From a virus: a stretch of DNA of 36,454 nucleotides. The translations under genes and the position numbers were made by a program. Shown in pieces: positions 398 through 12,329 of the stretch. A model generated the notes under the pieces. That model searched no databases, was not told the origin of the DNA, and worked only from the letters and a program-made list of their open reading frames with translations. Numbering within the stretch: the first letter of the stretch is position 1; every line of letters starts with the position of its first letter. The DNA lies in IMG/VR virus record IMGVR_UViG_3300033151_000642, positions 1 through 36,454 of that record; one strand, 5' to 3'.

Positions 398-1036
398 ATG
401 ACACAATTTTTCGTAAACGCTGACGAAATGACAGCAATTAAGGAAGTAACTGAAGACGCCGTAGGTAACTTTGCAGTTATTACTAAGGCTGATGAATTAC
501 TCGAAACATTTCCGAAGAAAGAGGATCTCATTAAACTGCGGACCAGTATTCGGGGGAAAGAAGCAAAAGGAGACCAGAATAAATCCGCAAAAAAATTGGC
601 CTTTGAAATCTTTGAACAAATGGGGAAAGACCCAAAACCTGAGAAAAAAGCAAAAGAGAAGAAACCCCCAAAAATTACCAAAGTTTCTATGGCTCGTGAT
701 ATTTTGCTGGAAAAAACCACCATCAAAAAAGCGGATCTGGCGGAAGCGATCGGGCATGATCTTCAGAATTGTCACACCATGATTAGCATTTTGAAAAATG
801 CCAAACGTACCAAAAAACCTCTGTATGTTTCCTATAATAAGGCCACCACGGAATATACCTTGCAGGAAACAGAGGAAGAAATGATAGCAGCGAATGCCGA
901 GTTTGATAAGGCCATCTCCGAGACAAAGAAAAAAGCCGGGGACGAAAAAAAAGCTGCTGCTGACAAGAAAGCCGCTGACAAGAAAGCCGCTGACAAGAAA
1001 GCCGCTGACAAGAAAGCCGCTGACAAGAAAGCCTAA
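398..1036 (+). CDS. Putative DNA-binding protein with winged-helix-like core and repetitive lysine tail
   Basis: The 212-aa product starts 8 nt after an AGGAGGAG site and is the first gene of promoter P1. The N-terminal third is mixed alpha/beta-like. A Lys/Pro-rich linker (about 75-95) leads to a segment (about 96-155, SMARDILLEKTTIKKADLAE...) that looks like a winged helix-turn-helix ending in a beta-wing (KPLYVSYNKATTEYTL). A charged helix follows, then a tail of five identical ADKKA units encoded by a perfect 15-bp repeat. The tail resembles histone-H1-like or nucleoid-protein basic tails. DNA binding is inferred from these properties, not from a recognised family. As the first gene after a strong promoter it could be an early regulator or a DNA-organising protein. 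Its stop overlaps the next ATG (TAATG). Confidence 0.8.
   Translation: MTQFFVNADEMTAIKEVTEDAVGNFAVITKADELLETFPKKEDLIKLRTSIRGKEAKGDQNKSAKKLAFEIFEQMGKDPKPEKKAKEKKPPKITKVSMARDILLEKTTIKKADLAEAIGHDLQNCHTMISILKNAKRTKKPLYVSYNKATTEYTLQETEEEMIAANAEFDKAISETKKKAGDEKKAAADKKAADKKAADKKAADKKAADKKA
959..1033 (+). repeat. Five perfect 15-bp tandem repeats
   Basis: The unit GCTGACAAGAAAGCC occurs five times in a row with no base differences, in frame, encoding (ADKKA)5 at the C-terminus of the 212-aa protein. Identity at synonymous positions points to recent slippage or strong constraint. Confidence 0.97.
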
Positions 1037-1524
1037 TGTCAGGATTCATCTTTGAAGGTCCCGATGGGGCAGGCAAATCTTTCATCGCTCTGGAATTTTC
1101 CAGGGCGGTGAATTTACCAATTCATCATTTCGGCGGACCACCCAAGTCAACAAAAGAAATCTATATGAGAGCAAAATTTATAGAGCAATCAGTAGATATT
1201 ATCTTTGACAGAGTTCCTATCATATCTGACCAGATTTATGGTCCAATCATTCGTGGGGATTCTTCAGTCTTTACTGACGAGGATTTCCCCCGTCTGAGTA
1301 ATTATACAATTATTTATTGTAGACCTTCGCTTGAAACAATTTTATCTGTTTCATTAGAAGCTAAAATGCACAAAAGTCAAAAACATACTGATAAAGTAAA
1401 AGGAAACATTATTAATATTGTTGCTGCATATGATCATATAATGCGCAAAATACCTCATATAACTTTTAATCGGGATAAAGCAACTTGTGGGGAACTATGT
1501 CTAAGGTTACAAAAGTTACTTTAG
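1036..1524 (+). CDS. P-loop deoxynucleoside monophosphate kinase-like protein
   Basis: The 162-aa protein begins with a beta-strand and a clear Walker A motif, GPDGAGKS (residues 8-15), in the form used by thymidylate-kinase-type enzymes (GxDGxGKS). A DR pair follows a hydrophobic strand (IIFDRVPIISDQIYG, around 56-69), as in nucleotide kinases where DR contacts the acceptor. A later strand (YTIIYCRPS) and a basic helix could form the rest of the core and lid. It is shorter than typical thymidylate kinase (about 205-215 aa). The likely role is phosphorylating a normal or modified dNMP, in line with the dUTPase, dCMP deaminase and TS-fold enzyme nearby; substrate specificity cannot be read from sequence. 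It overlaps the HNH gene by 28 nt. Confidence 0.75.
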   Translation: MSGFIFEGPDGAGKSFIALEFSRAVNLPIHHFGGPPKSTKEIYMRAKFIEQSVDIIFDRVPIISDQIYGPIIRGDSSVFTDEDFPRLSNYTIIYCRPSLETILSVSLEAKMHKSQKHTDKVKGNIINIVAAYDHIMRKIPHITFNRDKATCGELCLRLQKLL

Positions 1525-2123
1525 CAATTATGGTCGATTTATATTCTGATGGATTATCTCTCTCAAGTATTGCGAGTAGTCTATCTATAAATATTAAGAC
1601 TGTTTCCTATCATCTAGAAAAACTTGGATTGTACAGGAGAAAACCACAACTTAAAAATAGTGAAATAATAAATATTGTAGATCTATATGTTGATGGTTTT
1701 AGAATAAAAGATCTTGCAGAAATGTTTAATACATCAGTTTCAACAGTAGGAAAACATTTAAGAAGAGCTGGTATCAAAGTTACTTACCCAAAGAATAGAG
1801 ACTCAAAACCATGGGCAGCAGAAAAACGAGGTAATGAGTATACTGATCATAGAGGGTTTGTCTGTTTAAGAACTGTACGTGACGGAAAAGGAAGGCCCAA
1901 AAGAAAACATGTTTATGTTGCTGAGCAACATTTTGGGATTGAAGCCTTAAAAGGTTTTGTAATCCATCATAAAGATTTCATCAGAAGCAATAATGACATT
2001 TCTAATTTAGAATTAATGACGCAAAGTGACCATATGAAGTTACATATGGAACGAATTGATCAAATTAAAAGAGGAGAAGTATTTTGTGCGGAATCAGTTT
2101 ATGCTTCGGGGAAGCAAATGTAG
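1497..2123 (+). CDS. HNH homing-type endonuclease with two N-terminal HTH motifs
   Basis: I place the start at ATG 1497, 3 nt after a GTGGGGA site, rather than the upstream in-frame TTG at 1485; this gives 208 aa. Two successive helix-turn-helix repeats (about residues 5-50 and 52-98; compare LSLSSIASSLSINIKTVSYH with FRIKDLAEMFNTSVSTVGKH) would bind DNA. The C-terminal half is an HNH_3-type nuclease: a strand around HVYVAEQHFG, then VIHHKDFIRSNNDISNLELM and DHMKLH. This is the architecture of free-standing phage homing endonucleases. It overlaps the kinase gene by 28 nt and the amidotransferase gene by 40 nt, so it is a likely mobile gene tightly fitted between them. No intron is apparent. 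Confidence 0.85.
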   Translation: MSKVTKVTLAIMVDLYSDGLSLSSIASSLSINIKTVSYHLEKLGLYRRKPQLKNSEIINIVDLYVDGFRIKDLAEMFNTSVSTVGKHLRRAGIKVTYPKNRDSKPWAAEKRGNEYTDHRGFVCLRTVRDGKGRPKRKHVYVAEQHFGIEALKGFVIHHKDFIRSNNDISNLELMTQSDHMKLHMERIDQIKRGEVFCAESVYASGKQM

Positions 2124-3421
2124 ACTTGATGAATTCTCTGCTTGGTCACAGAGGAATCCGATCTACAACAGAACATCTTGGAAATAATCTATATTTAGGT
2201 CATGTTCGTTTACCTATTCAGGGACTTTCAAAACATGAAGATCATCCAATAACTTACAAGGGATTCACTGGTGCATTTGTTGGGGAGATCTTTAACTTTA
2301 AAGAACTATCCCCGGAATCAAAGACGGATTTACCCGTTATGCTTACTATGTTAAGCCAAGGGGGGTCGGGTGCCTTTGCTCTTTTCGATGGGTTTTGGTC
2401 AGCAATAATTTATAGCAGAGTAGAAAAATGTACCCACGTCTACGTGGACCCTCTGGCTAAGAAACCATTATACATGAGAGAAGGTCCTTTTGCAATATCT
2501 TCTGAAATAAAAGCTTTATTGCCACTAGGGGGAAATTCATTTGATGAGATTTATTTTTCAGCAGTTGCTAAATGGGGTTACTGCCCTACAGAGCAAACAC
2601 CCTTTAAGGAAATAACTAAAATTCCTGCTGGGACTCATTTAGTTATTAATGAATCTGGGGAAGTTATTGCGGCGGAAACATATATGACATTACAGAAATC
2701 ATATACACAAAAAGATCTTGCAAAAAAATTATATGATGCTGTTAAGAATAGGACAGTCTCCGACGTCCCTATCTCATTACTAATGTCTGGTGGGCTTGAT
2801 AGCACAATTATCTATGAACTTTTAAAAAGATGCACATCTGAAATAACAATTTTTCATATAGACAATGACGAGTCCCAATACCTAGAATATATTGATTTTA
2901 GGTCGCAGGATAAACTAGTTAAACTAGAGCTTGATGTCAACTATGACTTGGATAAGATCCTTTGGCATAATGAGTGTCCAGTTGATCTTGGTTCAATGAT
3001 TCCACAATTTCAATTAGCAAAAGAGATTAAAAAGCAGGGGTTTAATGTTTGTTTGTCTGGGGATGGGGCTGATGAGTTATTCGGGGGATATAAGAGATCC
3101 ATGGAATATGATTCCCAATATTCTGATATTTATCATGAAATTATTTATTATCACCTTCCTAGGTTGGATAAAATGATGATGGCCCATACTGTTGAATTGA
3201 GGTGTCCATTCTTATCATGGCCCGTTATAAGTTGTGCGTTTAACACACCGTATAGACTACGGAAAGGAAAACAAATATTAAAAAACTTATTTAGAGATTT
3301 AGTTCCAAACGAGATTTTAAGTAGAATTAAACAACCATTGCGATATAGAACAGCAAAACTTGATAGACATGAACTAATATGTAGATATAAGTCACTAATT
3401 AAAAGGGAGAAATTAATATGA
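2084..3421 (+). CDS. AsnB-type glutamine-dependent amidotransferase (asparagine synthetase-like)
   Basis: The 445-aa protein starts at TTG 2084, 7 nt after GAGGAG; this start places Cys at position 2 (MCGIS), the N-terminal nucleophile of class II glutamine amidotransferases. Residues 1 to about 200 are the glutaminase domain (R42, GEIFN 67-71, D82). Residues about 205-440 are the ATP-pyrophosphatase synthetase domain, with the PP-loop SGGLDS (235-240) and SGDGADELFGGY (325-336), hallmarks of AsnB. Family members adenylate a carboxylate and convert it to an amide with glutamine-derived ammonia. It is shorter than E. coli AsnB (554 aa). The oxyanion-hole Asn of the canonical NGE motif is Val66 here. 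Its setting among nucleotide and methyltransferase genes suggests a substrate other than aspartate, possibly a modified base; that is inference. It is coupled to the dUTPase by an ATGA overlap. Confidence 0.9.
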   Translation: MCGISLCFGEANVDLMNSLLGHRGIRSTTEHLGNNLYLGHVRLPIQGLSKHEDHPITYKGFTGAFVGEIFNFKELSPESKTDLPVMLTMLSQGGSGAFALFDGFWSAIIYSRVEKCTHVYVDPLAKKPLYMREGPFAISSEIKALLPLGGNSFDEIYFSAVAKWGYCPTEQTPFKEITKIPAGTHLVINESGEVIAAETYMTLQKSYTQKDLAKKLYDAVKNRTVSDVPISLLMSGGLDSTIIYELLKRCTSEITIFHIDNDESQYLEYIDFRSQDKLVKLELDVNYDLDKILWHNECPVDLGSMIPQFQLAKEIKKQGFNVCLSGDGADELFGGYKRSMEYDSQYSDIYHEIIYYHLPRLDKMMMAHTVELRCPFLSWPVISCAFNTPYRLRKGKQILKNLFRDLVPNEILSRIKQPLRYRTAKLDRHELICRYKSLIKREKLI

Positions 3422-4059
3422 ATGTAAACGATATTGAAGACGAACGCCCCCCTGGGGATAAACTAAAATTAATCTTCTCAAGACAGGAAGAGCTAAAGAA
3501 AAAATATCATCATATTGAGGAAAGCCAGGGGGTTGGTTATGGTATTCTCAATGGATCCATTTTCGATATTAATGAAACCAGATCCCAATGTCTCCTTAAA
3601 GACCTAGCATGGAGAGTTGTAGAAGAGATAACTGAAGCAACTGAAGCTCAGATTAATCATGATGAAATTCATTTTAGAGAAGAACTGGCGGACGCCCTGC
3701 ATTTCTTGACTGAGCTTTGCATTCAGGTAGGGATTGGTCCAGCGACAATTGCTACAGATATAATGCAAAACAGTAAAAAAGATTATTTAGATAATCTATT
3801 TTACACCCCAGACAAGGAACTTTCAGACAATCCTTATAACACGGTCCTGCATATTGGATTAGCTATGAATTGTTTAAAGCAGAAACCATGGAAACAAACT
3901 CACGTATTGACAGACGTTGGTGAGTTCGAGGATCATTTGATAGATGCTTATAGAGCATTTTGTAAATATCTTTACTGTTACATGGATGCTGATACAGCAT
4001 TTGACTTCTACTTTAAAAAAAGTAGAGTTAATGATTTTCGAATAAAAAGCAATTACTAA
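3418..4059 (+). CDS. Dimeric-type (all-alpha) dUTPase
   Basis: The 213-aa protein has the Mg-binding motifs of all-alpha NTP pyrophosphatases: EExxE (residues 69-73, VVEEITEATEA) and ExxD (89-92, REELADALHF). A later C-terminal motif, KSRVNDFRIKSNY, matches the K-N..N.FRQ..Y signature of the dimeric dUTPase branch better than MazG. The reaction is dUTP to dUMP and pyrophosphate, keeping uracil out of DNA and supplying dUMP; relatives can also use dUDP or modified nucleotides. Its ATG overlaps the AsnB-like stop. Together with dCMP deaminase (9747-10196) it would shape the dUMP and dTMP pools. Confidence 0.82.
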   Translation: MNVNDIEDERPPGDKLKLIFSRQEELKKKYHHIEESQGVGYGILNGSIFDINETRSQCLLKDLAWRVVEEITEATEAQINHDEIHFREELADALHFLTELCIQVGIGPATIATDIMQNSKKDYLDNLFYTPDKELSDNPYNTVLHIGLAMNCLKQKPWKQTHVLTDVGEFEDHLIDAYRAFCKYLYCYMDADTAFDFYFKKSRVNDFRIKSNY

Positions 4060-4063
4060 TTAA

Positions 4064-4408
4064 ATGATCCCAGTAAAAGCAAGAATAAACGGACGAAAGT
4101 TATTCTTTAGGAGCCGGCATGAGCTAGCCCGGTATTTAATGGATTTGCTTAATGATTCTGTTTCATTGTTACCAATTCGGGCGGAGAATCTTCAAAAAAT
4201 TATGGAGATAACCGGGTTTCATATTAAGGCTAAATGGATAGGTGGAATTACTACAGAAGAGCGCTTTACAAAGGCATACTGGGAAACATTATTATCATTA
4301 GAGCACAAAGGAACCTTAAAGGGATTCTCAGTTATTTGTTCTATTGAAAAAGGATCCTCCAATTATGACCCAGAACGTAGACGCATAACAACTGATTGGA
4401 CTATATAA
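4064..4408 (+). CDS. 114-aa hypothetical protein
   Basis: The gene starts 5 nt after the dUTPase stop with no visible Shine-Dalgarno, so translation probably depends on reinitiation from the upstream gene. The product is basic at its N-terminus (KARINGRKLFFRSRHELARYLMDLL), with a beta-alpha-beta-like pattern and a C-terminal IEKGSSNYDPERRRITTDWTI. I do not recognise a family. It sits directly upstream of the methyltransferase pair and could be a partner of those enzymes, but nothing in the sequence proves that. Confidence 0.65.
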   Translation: MIPVKARINGRKLFFRSRHELARYLMDLLNDSVSLLPIRAENLQKIMEITGFHIKAKWIGGITTEERFTKAYWETLLSLEHKGTLKGFSVICSIEKGSSNYDPERRRITTDWTI

Positions 4409-4421
4409 AAAGGGAGATTAT

Positions 4422-5627
4422 ATGAGAGCTATTGGAATCACATCTGGCATTGGAAGCATGCTGATTGGGGCTAAGCAACTAGGATTTGAAGTCCTAGGGA
4501 ATATTGAATGGCGTAAATATTATCATGCCAGGGATAGTTATGGTAGGAATTCATTCGAGGAGTATTTTAATGCTCCTATGTATAAAAATATAGAAGAATT
4601 GACTGAGGAAGAGATTAGCAAGATGTCGAATGCTGACATTGCTTTTGGCCATCCGGAGTGTGGAAATTTTTCGAATATGTCAGCCACAGCCCAGCAAACG
4701 AGAACACTTGCTGAAATGCGGAGTGATGCTGGAGACATCCCTATTTTTACGGAACTAGTTAGTAAGCTTAAACCAAGATTTTTTGTACAGGATAATCTTC
4801 CAAAAAGTCTTATGGGATATTCGATTGAAGATTGGGCGAGAGCTCTTCCAGAATATGATTTATTTCCAGAATGGGTTTCAAACTGGGGATACGGAAATAT
4901 TCAGAAGTTCAGAAAACGGTTTTTTATGATAGGAGCTTTGAAGAAAGAGAATTTTGTTTTTAGACCATTTGAGATTGACGATGATCTTTCTTTGAGAATT
5001 GTTTTGAAAAATCTTCCAGAGGAGAATCAAGATAAGCACACTGAAGAGGGTAACATGTCAAAAGGGCGAGGAATATTCAGCGATGATCCAATGACATGGG
5101 GACAATATAAAGAATTTATGCTAAGGGAAAAGGATGGAGTTACAATCACCTATCTAGCTAAAGATGATACTTGGAAAACTCATGTAGGTTGGAGGAAAGC
5201 TTTTAGCGATGGATATGTACCTGTTATTACAGGGGGATGCCCGATTGCAAATCCATTTACAGGGCTTCCCTTCACTATCAGAGAACGTTGTCGGATTCAG
5301 GGTTTTCCTGATGATTTTATAATATACGGAACTAAATTCCTTGAAGATGGAACATGGAATCACAGTAGAAACTCTGCTGTAATTAAGCAGACTGGTAAGT
5401 CTATGCCTGTTGAGTTCTGTAGATATGTTACACAAATAATTAAGAATCATATCCAGGGGGTTACTTCTGTAAAAGAAACATCTGAAAGAATCCTGAATCC
5501 AAATCCATTGATCAGTGAAGCTAAACAATGGTATTGTAAAAAAATTGGTTATTCTCACCAGTCGGTGGTCTGCGATCAATGCTGGATTAAAAAGTGTGAA
5601 AATAAGGAGGAGCTATGCGAGCAATAG
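4422..5627 (+). CDS. Divergent cytosine-C5 DNA methyltransferase-like protein, copy 1
   Basis: The 401-aa protein starts after AGGGAG at 4411-4416. The C5-methyltransferase motif order is recognisable: motif I (GIGSMLIGAKQLGFEV, residues 9-24) for AdoMet; motif IV GHPECGNFS with Cys80 as the expected nucleophile; motif VI FVQDN (D124-N125); motif VIII QKFRKRFFMIG (161-171); motif IX-like TIRERCRIQGFPDDF (about 285-299); and motif X-like IKQTGKSMPVEFC. Key differences from standard enzymes are PPCQ changed to PECG, and the motif VI Glu (ENV) replaced by Asp. A C-terminal Cys cluster (WYC...CDQCWIKKC) may bind zinc. It probably modifies cytosine in DNA, but the altered pocket leaves room for another base or cofactor. 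The next gene is a paralogue overlapping by 13 nt. Confidence 0.85.
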   Translation: MRAIGITSGIGSMLIGAKQLGFEVLGNIEWRKYYHARDSYGRNSFEEYFNAPMYKNIEELTEEEISKMSNADIAFGHPECGNFSNMSATAQQTRTLAEMRSDAGDIPIFTELVSKLKPRFFVQDNLPKSLMGYSIEDWARALPEYDLFPEWVSNWGYGNIQKFRKRFFMIGALKKENFVFRPFEIDDDLSLRIVLKNLPEENQDKHTEEGNMSKGRGIFSDDPMTWGQYKEFMLREKDGVTITYLAKDDTWKTHVGWRKAFSDGYVPVITGGCPIANPFTGLPFTIRERCRIQGFPDDFIIYGTKFLEDGTWNHSRNSAVIKQTGKSMPVEFCRYVTQIIKNHIQGVTSVKETSERILNPNPLISEAKQWYCKKIGYSHQSVVCDQCWIKKCENKEELCEQ

Positions 5628-6829
5628 GGGCAACTTGCGGAGTAGGTTCTATGTTGATAGGAGCAAAATTGGCCGGATTTGATATAGAAGGAAACATAGA
5701 ATGGCGCTCATATTATCATCATAAAGATGAGAGGGGGAGAAATACATTTACTGAAAATTTCCCCGGGTCTTTTTTTGTAAAAGATATTAATTCTAAGCTA
5801 AACTTTAGATTTAAAAATTGGATATGGAAGAATGAAAAAAATGATCCTGTCGATTTAATAATGGGACACCCTGATTGTGGTAATTATTCTGTATTATCTA
5901 ACTCATTAGGTAATACAAGTGAAAGTCAAAAAAAACCGGGGGATATACCGATATTCGTGGATATTATACGTCGTCTTAAGCCACGTTTCTTCGTCCAGGA
6001 TAATCTCCCTAAATCACTAATCGGTTATCCGATTCAAAAATGGGCTACCGAATTATCTGAATATGATTTATTTCCGGAATGGGTTTCAAACTGGGGCTAT
6101 GGAAACATCCAAAAGTTTAGAAAGCGATTTTTCATGATCGGTGCAAGAAAAGATGAAAAATTTGTTTTCAAACCCAATGAGACTGAACATGAAGAAACAA
6201 TGAGAAGTGTTTTATTTAGAGAACCAAAACCTGAATTTAACAATGAACCTCACTCCATGAAAGGGAGAACATCTATTGGAAAAGGGATAAAACATGATAG
6301 CTATATGAATTGGGAACAACTAAGAGATCATGTTTTAAATGATGTTAAAGAAGGTGGTGGTCTTCATTATGTAAAAAGTGATGGGTCTATAGGGCAACAT
6401 ATTGGAACTCAGAAAGGATATAAGGATAAGCATGCCTTTGTTCTTACAGGTGGTTCTAGCTTTCCGCTGTCAGCTTGGACAGGATTACCCCTGTCAATAA
6501 GAGACCGGGCTAGAATACAGGGTGTTCCTGATTATTTTAGATTCTATGGGACAAAGATCGAACCCGATGGGTCTTGGCTATGCACTAAAAATAATAAAAT
6601 GATTAAGCAGATAGCTAAATTTATGCCTATCCAATTTTGTGAATATGTAGCAACCCAAATTAGAGCTCATATATATAAGGAAGAATTTAAAGCTTCTGGG
6701 AATAGACTTCTTAATCCAAATATGTACGTAGATGAAGCTAAAGAATGGTATTGTAAAACGCATGGTTATTCAAATCAGTTAGAGACTTGCGAGCAATGCT
6801 GGATTAAAAAGTGTGATAATAGAAAGTGA
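5615..6829 (+). CDS. Divergent cytosine-C5 DNA methyltransferase-like protein, copy 2
   Basis: The 404-aa paralogue of the preceding gene has GGAGGAG just upstream of ATG 5615. Shared features are GVGSMLIGAKLAGFD (9-23), GHPDCGNYS with Cys88, FVQDNLPKSL (D129-N130), NIQKFRKRFFMIGA, SIRDRARIQGVPDYF and the Cys-rich tail WYCKTHGYS...CEQCWIKKC. The central catalytic block is almost identical to copy 1 at protein level while its codons differ at many synonymous sites. That indicates an old duplication kept under purifying selection. The target-recognition region (about 185-290) differs most, so the copies may recognise different sequences or act as a heterodimer. It ends 81 nt before the next gene, with the palindromic regulatory region in between. 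Confidence 0.85.
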   Translation: MRAIGATCGVGSMLIGAKLAGFDIEGNIEWRSYYHHKDERGRNTFTENFPGSFFVKDINSKLNFRFKNWIWKNEKNDPVDLIMGHPDCGNYSVLSNSLGNTSESQKKPGDIPIFVDIIRRLKPRFFVQDNLPKSLIGYPIQKWATELSEYDLFPEWVSNWGYGNIQKFRKRFFMIGARKDEKFVFKPNETEHEETMRSVLFREPKPEFNNEPHSMKGRTSIGKGIKHDSYMNWEQLRDHVLNDVKEGGGLHYVKSDGSIGQHIGTQKGYKDKHAFVLTGGSSFPLSAWTGLPLSIRDRARIQGVPDYFRFYGTKIEPDGSWLCTKNNKMIKQIAKFMPIQFCEYVATQIRAHIYKEEFKASGNRLLNPNMYVDEAKEWYCKTHGYSNQLETCEQCWIKKCDNRK

Positions 6830-6846
6830 AATTAGTAAAATAAAGG

Positions 6847-6875
6847 TTTACAACAGACTCCTTATGGGTTATAGT
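6847..6875 (+). promoter_or_regulatory. Sigma70-type promoter P2 inside a palindrome
   Basis: TTTACA (6847-6852), a 17-nt spacer and TATAGT (6870-6875) form a near-consensus promoter. The expected start, about 6882, falls in the loop of the 16-bp inverted repeat 6857-6901, so its transcript would carry only the right arm and leave the ribosome-binding site of the 6910 gene free. Confidence 0.75.
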
Positions 6876-6905
6876 GCACATAACAATAACCCATAAGGAG
6901 TTTTT
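6857..6905 (+). terminator. 16-bp perfect inverted repeat with T-run; terminator, operator or RBS-sequestering hairpin
   Basis: ACTCCTTATGGGTTAT (6857-6872) pairs perfectly with ATAACCCATAAGGAGT (6886-6901) across a 13-nt loop. TTTTT (6901-6905) follows. In RNA coming from the methyltransferase operon this would form a terminator-like hairpin and bury AAGGAG (6895-6900), the ribosome-binding site of the next gene. As DNA, the dyad brackets the -10 box of P2 and could be a repressor operator. Confidence 0.75.
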
Positions 6906-6909
6906 AATT

Positions 6910-7317
6910 ATGTCAAACGAACCAAGAACAAAATTTGAGATACCCGAAAACATATTAGTTTATATGTTCTTTGAAAAAATGAAGAAATTCGGGACAACTA
7001 AAAAAGGTACTTATAACCCTCAGGATCCAACTCACTGGGAAGAAACCAAGGTCACCTTTTATGTAGAAAGTGAAAATGGGGTGAATCCCATAGATGTAGT
7101 AATCAAGGACGTTACTTGGATTACAACTATTACTTTCTCCGAGTTTGGTCAAGAACTATCCAGTGCGGATTGGGAGCCTCAAGAAAGTAAGTGGATAAAT
7201 GTCAACGCCCCAAGTTTCTTCGACACTCTATATAATGTCTATGTTCGGGGAGTTCATGAAGACGAAAATGAAGAAGCATTCGGTGATGATTTTGGTTGTC
7301 TCGCTGACTATGAATAA
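6910..7317 (+). CDS. 135-aa hypothetical protein
   Basis: I choose ATG 6910, 9 nt after AAGGAG, because the longer frame from GTG 6874 would begin inside the promoter. The protein begins MSNEPRTKFEIPENILVYMF, has a Trp-rich acidic middle with a predicted beta pattern (TKVTFYVESENG, DVVIKDVTWITTITFSEFG) and ends in a strongly acidic tail (HEDENEEAFGDDFG). I do not recognise a family. Acidic DNA-mimic or inhibitor proteins look like this, but that is only a possibility. The unusual palindromic promoter suggests separately controlled, probably high expression. Confidence 0.75.
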   Translation: MSNEPRTKFEIPENILVYMFFEKMKKFGTTKKGTYNPQDPTHWEETKVTFYVESENGVNPIDVVIKDVTWITTITFSEFGQELSSADWEPQESKWINVNAPSFFDTLYNVYVRGVHEDENEEAFGDDFGCLADYE

Positions 7318-7332
7318 AAAGAAAAATAAGTA

Positions 7333-7361
7333 TTTACAAAAGAATTATTATATGGTATACT
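7333..7361 (+). promoter_or_regulatory. Extended -10 sigma70-type promoter P3
   Basis: TTTACA (7333-7338), a 17-nt spacer and TATACT (7356-7361) with TG at 7353-7354. The spacer and flanks (AATTATTATATGnTATACTT) nearly copy P1 at 321-349. It drives the unit starting at 7392. Confidence 0.85.
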
Positions 7362-7391
7362 TTATTATAATAAAAATTCGGGGGGATAAAC

Positions 7392-7604
7392 ATGGCGGTT
7401 TTAGAGACAATAGATAATATCACTAAAAAACAAGCAGAGGAATTTAGAGATTGGTTTGATCTGGAAATTAATACGGAATTTAGTATTGAACCTTCTGGTG
7501 ATGGTGAACAATACCATTTTTATTGTATGTGCTATGATCTTGAAGAAAGCGAGATCGACAAGACCATAGAATATTTAAATGAAGCAAACATTGAATATTA
7601 TTAG
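7392..7604 (+). CDS. 70-aa acidic hypothetical protein
   Basis: ATG 7392 follows a GGGGGGAT site and promoter P3. The acidic product (MAVLETIDNITKKQAEEFRDWF...) has an alpha-beta-alpha outline, with a central strand YHFYCMCYDL and a C-terminal helix EIDKTIEYLNEANIEYY. No family is recognised. It is the first gene of its transcription unit and sits 8 nt before the GHKL-type ATPase gene, so the two are probably co-expressed. Confidence 0.7.
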   Translation: MAVLETIDNITKKQAEEFRDWFDLEINTEFSIEPSGDGEQYHFYCMCYDLEESEIDKTIEYLNEANIEYY

Positions 7605-7612
7605 GGGGGACA

Positions 7613-8737
7613 ATGCCGAGATACGAACTATCTATTAGTCCAGATTATGTACCCAATTGGACTGAGTTAGACGCCGTGCGGGAAATCTTTCAAAATGCTC
7701 TGGATCAGCAGACAGTTGATCCTATGAATAGAATGTCTTGGAATTTTTCAAAAGAAGACGAATGCTTTTGGATCTCTAGCAGAAAGTCAAAACTTACTAA
7801 GGATTCCTTATTATTTGGAGTATCTTCAAAAGCAAATGATGTCAAGACAATCGGAATGTTTGGTGAGGGGTATAAATTAGCCTTACTGGTTTTGACCCGA
7901 TTAGGGTATGATGTTGTTATTAAAAACTATGCAGAAAATGAAGTTTGGAAGCCCAAAATTATTAACTCTAGAAGGTATGGTTCAAAGATTCTTGTTGTTG
8001 ATATCGAGAAAAAACGGTGGGCAAAACCTTCTGATGAAAATCTTACCTTTTTAATAGTGGGAACGCATGCTGGGGTTATTTCTAATATTGCTCAGACGAA
8101 CCTCCACATGAAAGTTCCGAAAAAAGTTATTGAAACATCATATGGTCAAATTCTTATAGGGAGAAGACATGTTAGCCGAGTGTATATAAATGGTTTATTT
8201 GTTTCGTCTAAGCCTGGGTTTATTTATGGGTATAATATTAAACCTGAATATCTTACTATTGGAAGGGACAGAAACCTTATTGGGGATTTTGATCTTGCAT
8301 GGATAACAAGTAAGATGTGGGCAGAAGCTACTAGCCACCCTATGTTGGCATCAAAGATGATTAAACAAGGATCACCAGATATTCAATATATAAGTTCTTT
8401 TACTTCTTCTGCAGGTGAATTAGCAAAAACAATGGAAGCTGAATTTAAAGGAACTTATGGAAAAGTTGCTGTACCTGTTTCTAGCCAGGAGGAGTATGAT
8501 ATCATAAAGGCATGTTACAAGAAAGTTAAACCCATTATTGTTAAGGAACTTGTAAAGACTATTCTTGTAGATTATACAGATGATGTGATAAAATCAGCTC
8601 CAAGAAGAAAGGACACACGGCAGCCGTCAGAGATCCTAAAAGGTTTTAGAAAGAAAATCCGGTCCAGTATTTTAAAGAAAGACTTAAATGAATTTGATCG
8701 GATAATAAAGAAGAGTTTTAATTGGACTTTTAAATAA
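7613..8737 (+). CDS. GHKL (Hsp90/MutL/histidine kinase fold) ATPase-like protein
   Basis: The 374-aa protein begins with an N-box-like helix, LDAVREIFQNALDQ (residues 19-32; E24 and N28 as in the E..xxNxxD pattern). A clear G2 box follows, IGMFGEGYKLALLVL (about 82-96), typical of GHKL ATP-binding domains. The DxGxG G1 box is not evident; the matching region reads ISSRKSKLTKDSLLFG. A second domain (about 140-250) contains VYINGLFVSS and ITIGRDRN-like beta segments, comparable with the S5-like transducer region that follows GHKL domains. The C-terminus is Lys-rich and helical. Phage relatives by fold include rIIA-like and other GHKL proteins; the role here is unknown. It follows the 70-aa gene closely and precedes the TS-fold gene by 12 nt. 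Confidence 0.75.
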   Translation: MPRYELSISPDYVPNWTELDAVREIFQNALDQQTVDPMNRMSWNFSKEDECFWISSRKSKLTKDSLLFGVSSKANDVKTIGMFGEGYKLALLVLTRLGYDVVIKNYAENEVWKPKIINSRRYGSKILVVDIEKKRWAKPSDENLTFLIVGTHAGVISNIAQTNLHMKVPKKVIETSYGQILIGRRHVSRVYINGLFVSSKPGFIYGYNIKPEYLTIGRDRNLIGDFDLAWITSKMWAEATSHPMLASKMIKQGSPDIQYISSFTSSAGELAKTMEAEFKGTYGKVAVPVSSQEEYDIIKACYKKVKPIIVKELVKTILVDYTDDVIKSAPRRKDTRQPSEILKGFRKKIRSSILKKDLNEFDRIIKKSFNWTFK

Positions 8738-8749
8738 AGGAGTGTGTAA

Positions 8750-9484
8750 ATGAGAATTTTTACAAATGCAGTAGAAATGGTAAATGAAGTTGAGCGAGAT
8801 TTATTTGAGATGGGGACTAAATATCAGTCAGCAACTGTCCAAGATCAGGATGTTGCTGATAACCCAGATTTTCAAACAATGGAACTTTGCGGATATGCCT
8901 ATATGTTAACAAAGTTTGATCCAGCAGATCTCAATAATATGATTAATCAATCAGGAAATATAAACAAATATTGGTTAATAGCGGAAGAAAAAGAACGGTT
9001 GCATGGAATTGAGAAAAGATCAATGGACAATGAAAAACCACCTCTAAATCCAGGGATTGCTTGGCACCAAAACTTTGTTTTTTGGCATAAATTCATTCGT
9101 AATGAGGTCTTTAGTTATTCATATGCTGAACGTTATCAGGAACAACTTCCCTATATCATCCGGGAGTTAAAGAACAGACCAAATACTCGTCAAGCAGTTA
9201 TGACTATGTATGATAAACATCAGGATATGATGCACTGGGGTGGTCGTGATCGAGTGCCTTGTTCTTTAACTTATCAATTCTTGCTTCGTGAGGATAAATT
9301 AGTTTTAATATATAACCAAAGGTCTTGTGATTTTGTTAAGTTTTTCCCATCTGATGTATGGTTGACTGTTGGATTATTGAAATATGTAGCAGAAAAAATT
9401 GGAAAGGCCCCCGGGCAGTTTATTCATTTTCTAGGTTCATTACATGCTTTCGCTGGGGACCTTAAAGGTAAGGAAATATTCTAA
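8750..9484 (+). CDS. Thymidylate synthase-fold enzyme, probable dCMP hydroxymethylase or dCMP-type member
   Basis: The 244-aa protein follows AAGGAGTG. Thymidylate synthase landmarks are present in order: a phosphate-site-like PNTRQAV (144-150), the nucleophile region RVPCSLTYQF with Cys171, QRSCD (190-194), the nucleotide-base segment PSDVW with Asp202, and GSLHAF (229-234) in place of GDxHIY. In thymidylate synthase the residue matching Asp202 is an Asn that reads uracil; in phage T4-type dCMP hydroxymethylase it is Asp, which selects cytosine. I therefore infer use of dCMP with methylene-tetrahydrofolate, to give 5-hydroxymethyl-dCMP or 5-methyl-dCMP. The D-to-S change in the last motif and RQ instead of RR in the phosphate site make it a divergent member. 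Its stop overlaps the next ATG. Confidence 0.8.
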   Translation: MRIFTNAVEMVNEVERDLFEMGTKYQSATVQDQDVADNPDFQTMELCGYAYMLTKFDPADLNNMINQSGNINKYWLIAEEKERLHGIEKRSMDNEKPPLNPGIAWHQNFVFWHKFIRNEVFSYSYAERYQEQLPYIIRELKNRPNTRQAVMTMYDKHQDMMHWGGRDRVPCSLTYQFLLREDKLVLIYNQRSCDFVKFFPSDVWLTVGLLKYVAEKIGKAPGQFIHFLGSLHAFAGDLKGKEIF

Positions 9485-9750
9485 TGTTCAAAGCTAAGGA
9501 TCAAATTATTTATATCCCTCGTCATGCAGAAGGAAATATAAATCACCCAGATGTTGAATTTGGATTTGTTATGACAGGTGGATTGGATTATGTTTTCTGT
9601 AGATATTGGATTAAAGGGCAACCAGGAGTTCTAAGGACAACTTCTTGTAGCGAGCGAACTCCAGTATCATGTTTACACCGATATAATAAATGTTTGTCCG
9701 GAGAAATAGACCAAGTTTACGCCGGAATTGAAAAGGAGACGATGGGATGA
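9484..9750 (+). CDS. 88-aa hypothetical protein
   Basis: The ATG overlaps the stop of the TS-fold gene (TAATG), and the gene's own end overlaps dCMP deaminase (ATGA). The product looks like a small beta-rich domain (DQIIYIPRHAEG, EFGFVMTGGLDYVFCRYWIKG) with three Cys (FCRYW, TTSCSE, VSCLHRY). The layout resembles small phage proteins of the SH3-like or KOW type that bind nucleic acid, but I cannot name a family. Tight coupling on both sides suggests that it serves the same nucleotide pathway or is regulated with it. Confidence 0.7.
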   Translation: MFKAKDQIIYIPRHAEGNINHPDVEFGFVMTGGLDYVFCRYWIKGQPGVLRTTSCSERTPVSCLHRYNKCLSGEIDQVYAGIEKETMG

Positions 9751-10196
9751 ATAGACCAACACAAGACCAGTATTTTATGAGAATGGCCCGGCTGGCAGCT
9801 ACCAGGTCCAATTGTTATCGTAGACAAGTCGGTTGCGTTTTAGTAGATGTTCATAATCGGATAATGGCTACGGGTTATAATGGTGTTCCTAGAGATTATC
9901 CGCATTGCGAGATTGGGTCTTGCCCACGGGAGATTCCTGGGCAAGATCTTCATCTCTGTTTGGCAATACATGCAGAAATGAACGCAATCCTTCAATGTAG
10001 AAATATAGATGATATATTCAAAATATATGTTACTGATAGTCCATGTATCCCATGTACATCAGTTCTCTTAAACACAAATTGTTATCAAATTATTTTTGAA
10101 AAATCTTACCCGAATGACTCGCAGTCAATCTGGGAAAATAGAAATAGGAAATGGACACAATATGAAACAATCAGAAATACTGGAGTTGACAAATAA
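9747..10196 (+). CDS. Deoxycytidylate (dCMP) deaminase
   Basis: The 149-aa enzyme of the zinc cytidine-deaminase fold converts dCMP to dUMP. The catalytic HAE is at 75-77 (HAEMNA), and PCIPC supplies Cys100 and Cys103 as zinc ligands. The extra Cys/His segment (HCEIGSCPREIPGQDLHLC, about 53-71) is typical of phage T4-type dCMP deaminases, which bind a second structural zinc. The N-terminus RPTQDQYFMRMARLAATRSNC and GYNGVPRDY are also family-typical. The length matches the family. In phages that replace cytosine, this enzyme and dUTPase drain dCTP precursors toward dTMP. The start overlaps the 88-aa gene by ATGA, after GGAGACG. Confidence 0.92.
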   Translation: MNRPTQDQYFMRMARLAATRSNCYRRQVGCVLVDVHNRIMATGYNGVPRDYPHCEIGSCPREIPGQDLHLCLAIHAEMNAILQCRNIDDIFKIYVTDSPCIPCTSVLLNTNCYQIIFEKSYPNDSQSIWENRNRKWTQYETIRNTGVDK

Positions 10197-10356
10197 GATT
10201 CTAGATTTGAATATAGATAAAGCAAAGATTTATGAATTTTGTGCAGCATGTGCAAATGCTAAAGCAATTATAGAAAATAAGCTTCAAGCGGAAACTATGA
10301 AGATAACTGTTGAAGCAGGTCTCAAAAATCTTATAAATATGATGGGGGGAAAATGA
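10162..10356 (+). CDS. 64-aa hypothetical helical protein
   Basis: I choose ATG 10162 (MKQSEILELTNK), which overlaps the end of the dCMP deaminase gene by 35 nt, over an upstream in-frame ATG at 10096 that would overlap far more. AGGA at about 10146-10149 is a weak site. The product is almost entirely predicted helix (ILELTNKILDLNIDKAKIYEFCAACANAK...), which suggests a small helical bundle or coiled coil. No family is recognised. It is linked to the DNA polymerase gene by an ATGA overlap within ATGGGGGGAAAATGA, which also holds the polymerase ribosome-binding site. Confidence 0.6.
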   Translation: MKQSEILELTNKILDLNIDKAKIYEFCAACANAKAIIENKLQAETMKITVEAGLKNLINMMGGK

Positions 10357-12329
10357 AGAAACTTCATGGAATCAGCACATCTCAAACTCCTATGTTTCCT
10401 ACTAAGTCTACATGGAGACCCCCGAGGGACCTCCCCAACCTGGCATCTGCTAAGTATATTGGCTTGGACACAGAGTCTTGTGATCCCGAATTAAAAGAGA
10501 AAGGACCAGGAGTTCGTCGGGGTGGTTATACTGTAGGAATATCAGTAGCTGTTCCAGAGGGTAAAACTTGGTACTTGCCTTATGGGCATTCGACTGGGGA
10601 TCAGCTGGAAAAAGAAAAAGTTATTAGATGGGCAAAAGACAATCTTTGTAATCCGGATCAACCTAAAATCGGAGCTAATCTATTATATGATCTGGATTAT
10701 TTATATCATGCAGGGGTAAAAGTTTCTGGACCATTTTATGATGTTCAAGTTGCTGAACCATTAATTGATGAGAATGCTCGTGGGGGATACTCTTTGGATG
10801 CTTTAGCTAAAAAATATTTAAATGAACCTAAACGTGTTGATCTTCTTTCGGAAGCTTGTAGTGATTGGGATTTAAAAGGAACACCCCAGAAACATATTTG
10901 GAAATTAGATGCTAAATATACTGGAGTTTATGCCGAAGGTGATGCAATTCAAGCTATAAGAATATTTGAAAAGCAAAAAATCATTATGAAAGAACAGGGG
11001 CTTGAACGGGTATTCGATATTGAGACACGATTAATCCCAATGTTACTTCATATGAGACAATTAGGGGTAAAAATTAATTCTGAAAGATTACTCCAATTAC
11101 ATAGTCATATGACAGATGAATTAAAAGTGTTAGAGAAACAGCTTGAATTATCAGCAGGGCAACCGATCAATTATAATGCAGCGGAATCAATTGCAATCAT
11201 TTTTGATAAATTTGGTCTTCCATATCCAATGACAGCAAAAACTAAGAAACCTTCTTTTGTTAAGGGGTGGCTTGAAAAACAGACTCATGACGTAGCTAAA
11301 ATGATAGTTAAGTGTCGTGAGGCGAACAAATTCATAGGAACATTTTTAGAAGGATCCTTACTGGAAATGATGATCGGGGATAGAATCCACTGTCAATTTA
11401 ATCAATTAAGAGGGGATGAATTTGGAGCAGTTACTGGACGATTCTCTTCATCAAACCCTAACTTACAGTTTATACCCACTAGAACAGAACTAGGAAAAAA
11501 GTGTCGAAAATTATTTATTCCTGATGATGGGTATAATTGGTATAAAGCAGATTATAGCCAGATAGAGATTCGGGTCCTCGCCCATTATGCAATGGGGAAA
11601 GGGTCAAAAGAAATAGTTAAACAATTCATTAATAACCCGAAAACTGACTATCACCAATGGTGCGCTGACAAGGCTGGTGTATCTCGAACACGTGCTAAGA
11701 CAATTAATTTTGGGATTGTCTATGGTATGGGAGCTGCTAAGTTGGGGATTGGACTTGGTATATCCTTGAAGGAAGCAAAAAAATTTATTAAAGAATATTT
11801 TGAGATGCTACCTTTTATTCCAGAGACAGTAAATGCTGCGACTAACGCGGCTGCAGAGCGAGGATATATAAAAACTATCCTTGGTCGTAGAAGACGCTTT
11901 GATCTTTGGGAACCAAATGACAATAGATTAATAAACTATTGCGGGACGAGTAAAGATAGAGAGATATTAGATTACAAAATAAAACAATACAAGAATGCTA
12001 TACCAAAAGAAGGAAAAAAATTTTATAGAATGGGTACAAAGAGAGCCGGTTGTTATAAAGCCTTCAATGCTGCTGACCAAGGGTCTTCAGCAGACATAAT
12101 GAAAATGGCTCTGGTAGATGTTTGGGAGTCTGGTGTTTGCGATGTTATAAAACCATACATTACAGTCCATGATGAATTAGATTTCGGTGCACCAAAATCA
12201 AGGATCGGGCGAGAAGCAGTAATGGAAGTGAAACAGATAATGGAAAATACTTACAAGTTAAAAGTTCCGGCAATAGTGGATGTTGAAGAAGGTCAGAATT
12301 GGGGATCAGTAAGAGAGTTTATAATATGA
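10353..12329 (+). CDS. polA-like: Family A DNA polymerase (DNA polymerase I-like)
   Basis: The 658-aa replicative phage polymerase has a proofreading domain but no 5' nuclease domain. The 3'-5' exonuclease is at about 30-205, with Exo I IGLDTES, Exo II GANLLYDLDYL and Exo III YAEGDA. Polymerase motif A is KADYSQIEIRVLAHYA (about 396-412). Motif B, the O helix, is RTRAKTINFGIVYGMG (about 444-459); its Phe matches E. coli Phe762, the residue type that discriminates against dideoxynucleotides. Motif C is TVHDELDFGAP (about 604). All catalytic Asp residues expected for two-metal catalysis are visible. A basic, charged insertion (about 520-560, after GRRRRFDLWEP) lies between motifs B and C. It overlaps its neighbours on both sides by ATGA. 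Confidence 0.95.
   Translation: MKKLHGISTSQTPMFPTKSTWRPPRDLPNLASAKYIGLDTESCDPELKEKGPGVRRGGYTVGISVAVPEGKTWYLPYGHSTGDQLEKEKVIRWAKDNLCNPDQPKIGANLLYDLDYLYHAGVKVSGPFYDVQVAEPLIDENARGGYSLDALAKKYLNEPKRVDLLSEACSDWDLKGTPQKHIWKLDAKYTGVYAEGDAIQAIRIFEKQKIIMKEQGLERVFDIETRLIPMLLHMRQLGVKINSERLLQLHSHMTDELKVLEKQLELSAGQPINYNAAESIAIIFDKFGLPYPMTAKTKKPSFVKGWLEKQTHDVAKMIVKCREANKFIGTFLEGSLLEMMIGDRIHCQFNQLRGDEFGAVTGRFSSSNPNLQFIPTRTELGKKCRKLFIPDDGYNWYKADYSQIEIRVLAHYAMGKGSKEIVKQFINNPKTDYHQWCADKAGVSRTRAKTINFGIVYGMGAAKLGIGLGISLKEAKKFIKEYFEMLPFIPETVNAATNAAAERGYIKTILGRRRRFDLWEPNDNRLINYCGTSKDREILDYKIKQYKNAIPKEGKKFYRMGTKRAGCYKAFNAADQGSSADIMKMALVDVWESGVCDVIKPYITVHDELDFGAPKSRIGREAVMEVKQIMENTYKLKVPAIVDVEEGQNWGSVREFII

Follow-up and report, generated by a model that had tools for sequence, protein, structure and literature searches.

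The stretch of phage DNA analyzed here, IMG/VR record IMGVR_UViG_3300033151_000642 (36,454 bases, referred to as the window), carries at 1036-12329 a block of rightward genes for nucleotides and DNA modification, and its leftward genes encode tail, connector and lysis proteins. The block (Table 1) combines an AsnB-type protein with a thymidylate synthase (TS) family enzyme and two C5-methyltransferase (MTase)-like proteins, MT1 and MT2. The very probable role of this conserved gene set is to exchange cytosine in the DNA of the phage for a substitute that is then decorated further. An earlier reading of the letters of the window (the sequence-only reading) had named a kinase, an AsnB, a dUTPase, two C5-MTases, a TS and a dCMP deaminase in this region, and each of these open reading frames (ORFs) is found where it had been placed and matches the expected family.

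Table 1. Genes of the modification block of the window. Lengths are in amino acids (aa); dNMP, deoxynucleoside monophosphate; Ntn, N-terminal nucleophile; HTH, helix-turn-helix.
Feature	Position	Strand	Family match and residues
dNMP (thymidylate-type) kinase-like protein, 162 aa	1036..1524	+	phrog_761 E 7e-10
HNH endonuclease, homing type	1485-2123	+	phrog_7545; HTH plus HNH_3
AsnB-type protein, 445 aa: Ntn glutaminase domain and PP-loop ATP-dependent amide synthetase	2084..3421	+	PF00733 2.4e-43
All-alpha NTP pyrophosphatase, dimeric dUTPase/T4 gp56 (dCTPase)-like, 213 aa	3418..4059	+	PF08761 7.6e-05; phrog_12184 4e-25
Small conserved protein X5, 114 aa	4064..4408	+	same place in relatives G001 and G004
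C5-MTase-like MT1, 401 aa; C-terminal Cys-rich segment	4422..5627	+	PF00145 6e-17
C5-MTase-like MT2, 404 aa, tandem paralogue	5615..6829	+	PF00145 5e-14
dCMP-type TS-family enzyme, 244 aa	8750..9484	+	PF00303 2e-14; Cys171, Ser192, Asp202
dCMP deaminase, 149 aa	9747..10196	+	PF00383 2e-21; phrog_174 6e-38
Family A DNA polymerase, 658 aa, closes conserved block	10353..12329	+	phrog_17 6e-110

Relatives of the block were recruited by scanning IMG/VR with the AsnB and C5-MTase proteins and, later, with the alignments of their families; the TS was never used as bait. There are 331 AsnB-related matches, many of which are perhaps more distant, and the loci examined are the best 80 of the 331; in the non-redundant set of 76 AsnB loci about 10 kb per side was inspected, the neighbors being mostly labeled by sequence similarity. 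TS is encoded in 13 of the 15 contigs recruited first, and it lies within about 10 kb of AsnB, usually adjacent to it, in 60 of the 76 loci; for comparison, 463 of 50,697 named phage records have a match to the TS. In two loci without a nearby TS (L080 and L157) the gene is found elsewhere on the contig. A C5-MTase is present near AsnB in 39 of the 76 loci and an N6/N4-type MTase in 25, other genes often seen nearby are dCMP deaminase and a pyrophosphatase of gp56-like or MazG-like type, and the family A DNA polymerase is close to the cassette in several relatives. The dNMP kinase-like gene adjoins AsnB, immediately 5' of it, in relatives G001, G004, G007, G010 and others. The order kinase-AsnB-pyrophosphatase-MT-TS-deaminase-PolA, or a shuffled form of it, is kept in very divergent contigs, which argues that the gene set is more than chance. 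The co-occurrence of these genes in related phages, which the sequence-only reading had left as a point to check, is thus found, with the order conserved. The genes of the cassette are genuine, and their grouping is no accident.

The TS-family enzyme is, as the best call from its residues, probably a dCMP hydroxymethylase. The catalytic Cys171, Ser192 and Asp202 are invariant in 16 sequences, and Asp202 aligns with Asn177 of the E. coli enzyme and with Asp179 of T4 gp42, as expected from the dCMP-type aspartate that the sequence-only reading had pointed out; the Cys-to-Asp spacing of 31 is also equal to that between Cys148 and Asp179 of gp42. Cytosine is selected by an aspartate at this position, and the serine at the position equivalent to Ser192 is the deoxy-selecting residue (PMC6400193, PMC5175136). 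The N177-equivalent position, with its aspartate, is moreover one of the two that are most strongly linked to phage contigs with modified cytosine, in which TS, a PRA-PH pyrophosphohydrolase and dCMP deaminase co-occur (PMC8670742); the same trio is likewise present in the cassette loci. The TS profile search matches the MilA CMP hydroxymethylase (5b6d), the T4 dCMP hydroxymethylase (1b49) and true TS. The TS-type C-terminal tail is absent, as it is from T4 dCMP hydroxymethylase: the protein ends about 3 profile residues past the aligned core, whereas E. coli TS continues for about 48 more residues and T4 dCMP hydroxymethylase for about 25. Several relatives carry a ThyX-like protein, assigned by sequence reading without a profile, which is consistent with thymidylate being produced elsewhere. 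In the human-gut phages DP SC_6 and DP SC_2 (L054:46273-48040 and L055:28842-31441) there are TS-adjacent protein pairs which, on visual comparison, resemble decayed TS paralogues.

The AsnB-type ORF starts with TTG, and Cys2 is thereby the N-terminal nucleophile. Its AlphaFold model (pLDDT 87) superimposes on E. coli AsnB (1CT9) with a Z of 36.7, and the solved structures nearest to it belong to true asparagine synthetases. The two-domain fold, the N-terminal cysteine, the SGGxDS PP-loop and the catalytic lysine are common to both proteins, and among the AsnB sequences the Asp and Ser of the PP-loop are found in 77/77 and the lysine (Lys416, equivalent to K449) in 76/77. The window protein is shorter (445 versus 553 amino acids) and differs where the acceptor is bound. 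T322 and R325 of E. coli AsnB take part in aspartate binding, and this region is replaced by an invariant Gly303-Ser304. The equivalent of E. coli D384 is an invariant His357 (77/77), with the other two positions of the aspartate pocket, E348 and D351 in E. coli, remaining acidic (Asp327 and Asp330); these three residues correspond to Glu364/Asp367/Asp400 of human ASNS, which form the pocket of the aspartate amino group (PMC6748925). The TIGR01536 score (220.6) is below the curated cut-off of 267.1. The replacement of D384 by His357 makes an acceptor other than aspartate likely, and free asparagine is, from these residues, an unlikely product of this clade. In the glutaminase site Cys2 is conserved in 77/77 sequences, Asp82 (E. 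coli D98) in 74/77 and R42 (E. coli R49) in 49/77, but the oxyanion asparagine is Val in most of them, so that glutamine is a likely, though not a secure, nitrogen donor.

Among phage records the best match of this AsnB is gp124 of Streptomyces phage TurkishDelight, flanked by a CmoX (with SPPC and Arg) and a CmoA. The gp121-gp125 region of that phage places a glutaminase-bearing AsnB within a CmoX/CmoA/ParB cluster, and in phage Motura (18037-19317) such an AsnB is located within a QueC/QueE/transglycosylase 7-deazaguanine cluster.

The distribution of AsnB bears on the step that it may serve. No C5-MTase (PF00145) match is found in any of the 21 contigs with AsnB and TS or with AsnB only, among them contigs of 319, 147, 131 and 116 kb, and the loci lacking an MT are spread over two or more distinct branches of the AsnB tree (a quick FastTree). 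AsnB and TS are immediate neighbors in many contigs without an MT, and some of the MT-less loci, belonging to a clade with AsnB proteins of 464-468 amino acids, also have no nearby TS. The simplest reading of an AsnB that is kept without an MT is that it acts on TS-derived cytosine and that the MT is accessory. The idea that the AsnB substrate comes solely from carboxymethylation by MT1/MT2 is weakened by the AsnB and TS contigs that have no PF00145 match. An N6/N4-type MTase as general replacement of the MT was also considered and is rejected, as this gene mostly co-occurs with the MT and is not found in many of the MT-less contigs. The 464-468 amino acid clade (L121, L128, L138, L148, L155, L157 and relatives) is a separate one with conserved neighbors of its own; TS was not found near its AsnB genes, its 319-kb member carries TS elsewhere, and a Pfam match is absent for the three neighbors tested.

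The C5-MTase fold, motif I, the catalytic cysteine and QxRxR are all present in the MT1/MT2 family. The model of MT1 (pLDDT 86) gives a Z of 25.5 to 3g7u, 24.7 to CmoX (8YF3) and 24.5 to HaeIII, its confidence being lowest in the catalytic loop (residues 85-92), and a viral fold search with MT1 returns generic C5-MTases. The motifs of MT1 are HPEC (Cys80) for motif IV, QDNLP for motif VI and KQTGKxMP (Lys326) for motif X; those of MT2, which is 51% identical to MT1, are HPDC, QDNLP and KQIAKFMP. The 46 subfamily sequences have [E/D]-C-G in motif IV, D-[N/D]-L in motif VI and an intact QxRxR; motif IV reads HP[E/D]C or a close variant, with an acidic residue preceding the cysteine in 45/45 aligned sequences, and the PC(Q) and ENV of standard C5-MTases are not seen. 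The bacterial control C5-MTases have P-C in 18/18 and ENV in 18/18. The motif X lysine (Lys326 of MT1) is invariant in 46/46 subfamily sequences, as opposed to the controls in which this position could be aligned (n=17), where Asn occurs 14 times, Asp twice, Met once and Lys not at all. The CmoX signature, SPPC around the catalytic cysteine and Arg at the HhaI N304 position, is not present either. Judged by these motifs, MT1 and MT2 form a distinct C5-MTase subfamily, in agreement with their description as divergent in the sequence-only reading.

The subfamily lysine aligns with N304 of HhaI, R350 of CmoX and N374 of M.MpeI. R350 of CmoX binds the carboxyl group of carboxy-S-adenosylmethionine (carboxy-SAM), and the N374K change makes M.MpeI accept carboxy-SAM (PMC12783734). 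A lysine at this carboxy-SAM-binding position makes use of carboxy-SAM a serious possibility. CmoA was found over the TIGR00740 cut-off in 0/18 and 0/50 contigs, 68 in total with the window included, contigs that may be fragments; this agrees with the earlier remark that no carboxy-AdoMet synthase is visible, and host CmoA can supply carboxy-SAM (PMC12783734). In two contigs the C5-MTase-like protein and an N6/N4-type MTase domain form a single fusion protein (L071:9968-12271 and L081:9992-12244), the two being adjacent in many others, and in the nearest relative an N6/N4-type MTase (G001:49544-50422) stands where the window has MT1 and MT2.

With gene content, gene order, residues and folds as the observations, we infer the reactions of a modified-cytosine pathway that resembles the one of T4 and has an AsnB-type enzyme for its second step, a reading that we consider quite possible while stopping short of calling it probable. 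The gp56-like pyrophosphatase would convert dCTP into dCMP, and the Asp-type TS relative would put a one-carbon group, most likely hydroxymethyl, from methylenetetrahydrofolate on C5. The dNMP kinase, together with host enzymes, would raise the modified dCMP to the triphosphate, the family A polymerase, which would have to accept modified dCTP, would incorporate it, and dCMP deaminase would feed dTTP. AsnB would then adenylate, with ATP, the group at C5 of the cytosine modified by the TS, either as nucleotide or in DNA, and place on it a nitrogen, presumably derived from glutamine, leaving an amide or an amine at C5. MT1 and MT2 would be accessory transferases acting on DNA, where they add or process another group on the C5 side, and not the sole origin of the AsnB substrate. 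The more specific proposal, that the C5 group installed by the dCMP-type TS undergoes amination or amidation by the AsnB-type PP-loop enzyme (giving, for example, a 5-aminomethyl- or 5-amide-bearing cytosine), in many phages together with a new C5-MTase-like subfamily that uses carboxy-SAM via its lysine or acts on modified cytosine, is a tentative one.

Several points weigh against this pathway. We know of no precedent for an AsnB-type enzyme that adenylates a hydroxymethyl group, and if the TS product bore a carboxylate, this would have to come from another source. Of the residues that hold the attacking water in T4, the TS family has an invariant equivalent of Tyr96 (Tyr125), but the Ser94 position is Tyr or His and the Asp145 position is Arg; with this partial conservation, hydroxymethyl rather than methyl as the product is unproven. 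N74 of E. coli AsnB is the oxyanion asparagine of the glutaminase site, and its equivalent is Val in 55/77 AsnB sequences, including the window (Val66), for which reason glutamine as donor is not secure. Most of the contigs are fragments, and absences from them are therefore soft.

The sequence-only reading had proposed that a carboxylated or otherwise substituted cytosine is amidated. The cytosine (hyper)modification cassette, AsnB as an integral part of it and a likely non-aspartate acceptor are supported; a carboxylated cytosine as acceptor is a conjecture. The strongest sign of a carboxyl handle is the invariant MTase lysine, and counting against it are the lack of CmoA in every relative searched and the AsnB and TS contigs without a C5-MTase match. 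The corresponding route, in which MT1 and MT2 carboxymethylate C5 of DNA cytosine like CmoX, from carboxy-SAM made by host CmoA, and AsnB amidates the product to 5-carbamoylmethylcytosine, is rather unlikely, even if the lysine (46/46 versus 0/17 in the controls) at the position of CmoX R350 and M.MpeI N374K and the location of TurkishDelight gp124 between CmoX and CmoA speak for it. Also in its favor are the AsnB-type CmoY, which ligates glycine to 5-carboxymethylcytosine, and the glutaminase-bearing ligase cluster predicted to use ammonia (PMC12783734). This route is opposed by the 0/68 count for CmoA, by the changes of SPPC into HP[E/D]C and of ENV into D[N/D]L, and by the retention of AsnB in contigs with no detected C5-MTase; moreover, the target position of the MTs would already be occupied if the TS fills the DNA with C5-modified cytosine.

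It is also conceivable, but improbable, that the MTases act on 5-hydroxymethylcytosine (5hmC) in DNA or use uncommon chemistry, such as exchange of the C5 substituent or O-alkylation; in this reading Lys326 and the acidic neighbor of Cys80 would accommodate a polar group at C5 and not carboxy-SAM. They may also simply be protective methylases that tolerate modified DNA. In favor of this reading, the changes in motifs IV, VI and X are coordinated around the target C5, TS is close to most MT loci, and in many loci the MT is beside, or fused to, an N6/N4-type MTase; a point against it is that the catalytic loop is the least confident part of the MT1 model. That AsnB is an ordinary asparagine maker, an auxiliary metabolic gene linked to the nucleotide genes by chance, is very improbable: its nearest solved structures and its generic, sub-cut-off TIGR01536 match are what would be expected of such an enzyme, but the shortfall of that score, the changes at D384 and at T322/R325, and the tight and widespread linkage of AsnB and TS are not.

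The T4-like pathway with its AsnB step can be compared with known designs, which either join an Asp-type TS to a decorating enzyme (the T4 glucosyltransferases; the 5hmC carbamoyltransferase, PMC8670742) or an AsnB-like to a C5-MTase-like protein (CmoX/CmoY, PMC12783734). The precursor logic of dCTPase, Asp-type TS relative, dNMP kinase and dCMP deaminase is that of the T4 hydroxymethylcytosine pathway (gp42 dCMP hydroxymethylase, gp56 dCTPase, gp1 kinase, Cd dCMP deaminase, glucosyltransferases), whereas AsnB and the unusual C5-MTases replace the decorating enzymes and a glucosyltransferase was not found by the scans made. The 5hmC carbamoyltransferase cassettes (MetaGPA, PMC8670742) likewise have a decorating enzyme with an Asp-type TS, a PRA-PH pyrophosphohydrolase and dCMP deaminase, but the decorator of the window is AsnB-type (PP-loop, AMP-forming) and not a TobZ-like carbamoyltransferase. 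With CmoA-CmoX-CmoY of Synechococcus phage S-B43 (PMC12783734) and its glutaminase-bearing relatives (TurkishDelight) the window shares a C5-MTase-fold protein adjoining an AsnB-type enzyme and, where the carboxyl of carboxy-SAM is bound, a basic residue. In the window this residue is Lys and not Arg, HP[E/D]C and D[N/D]L take the place of SPPC and ENV, and CmoA is not found; the dCMP-type TS, gp56-like pyrophosphatase, dNMP kinase and dCMP deaminase are additional, and the window-type AsnB occurs without any C5-MTase in many contigs.

The sequence-only reading had held that an AsnB is not a standard part of base-modification systems. This is partly outdated by the AsnB-like CmoY of S-B43, published in December 2025 (PMC12783734). 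The pairing of AsnB with an Asp-type TS and the HP[E/D]C/D[N/D]L/Lys MTase subfamily were not encountered in the literature searched. If the proposed pathway is correct, AsnB would represent a widespread class of decorating enzymes for phage-DNA cytosine (more than 70 phage loci) and the product a chemical means of masking phage DNA that has not been described before. It would also provide a substrate hypothesis for a glutaminase-bearing AsnB clade and candidate carboxymethyl-forming or hydroxymethylcytosine-acting MTases, overlooked by the published SPPC and Arg filter.

With regard to the other genes, the PF08761 (dUTPase_2) match of the pyrophosphatase is barely over the Pfam cut-off, and its family profile matches T4 gp56 at the C-terminus only (2.3e-10, 26 bits, in a one-sequence search). 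The HNH ORF, which the sequence-only reading had not mentioned, separates the kinase from AsnB in the window, and since the kinase and AsnB genes overlap directly in the nearest relative, G001, it has the look of a homing element inserted at a conserved position. The ORFs at 6874-8737 and 9484-9750, likewise not mentioned there, are unrelated or unassigned; among them, a 374-amino acid protein (7613-8737, plus strand; phrog_6077) has a weak sacsin-type (GHKL-like) ATP-binding match, and no homologue of it was found in the cassettes of the relatives. A scan of genome contigs for a host gave a sole match, the Myxococcaceae metagenome-assembled genome contig RPRB01000006.1, which is probably a phage contig in the bin because its length and coordinates equal those of an IMG/VR phage contig (the pair L166 and L085), apparently the same contig, and it is rejected as a reliable host. 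PADLOC finds only generic methyltransferase and deaminase matches. Upstream of the block, the protein encoded at 398-1036 (plus strand) has a Lys/Ala-rich C-terminal tail with tandem DKKAA repeats.

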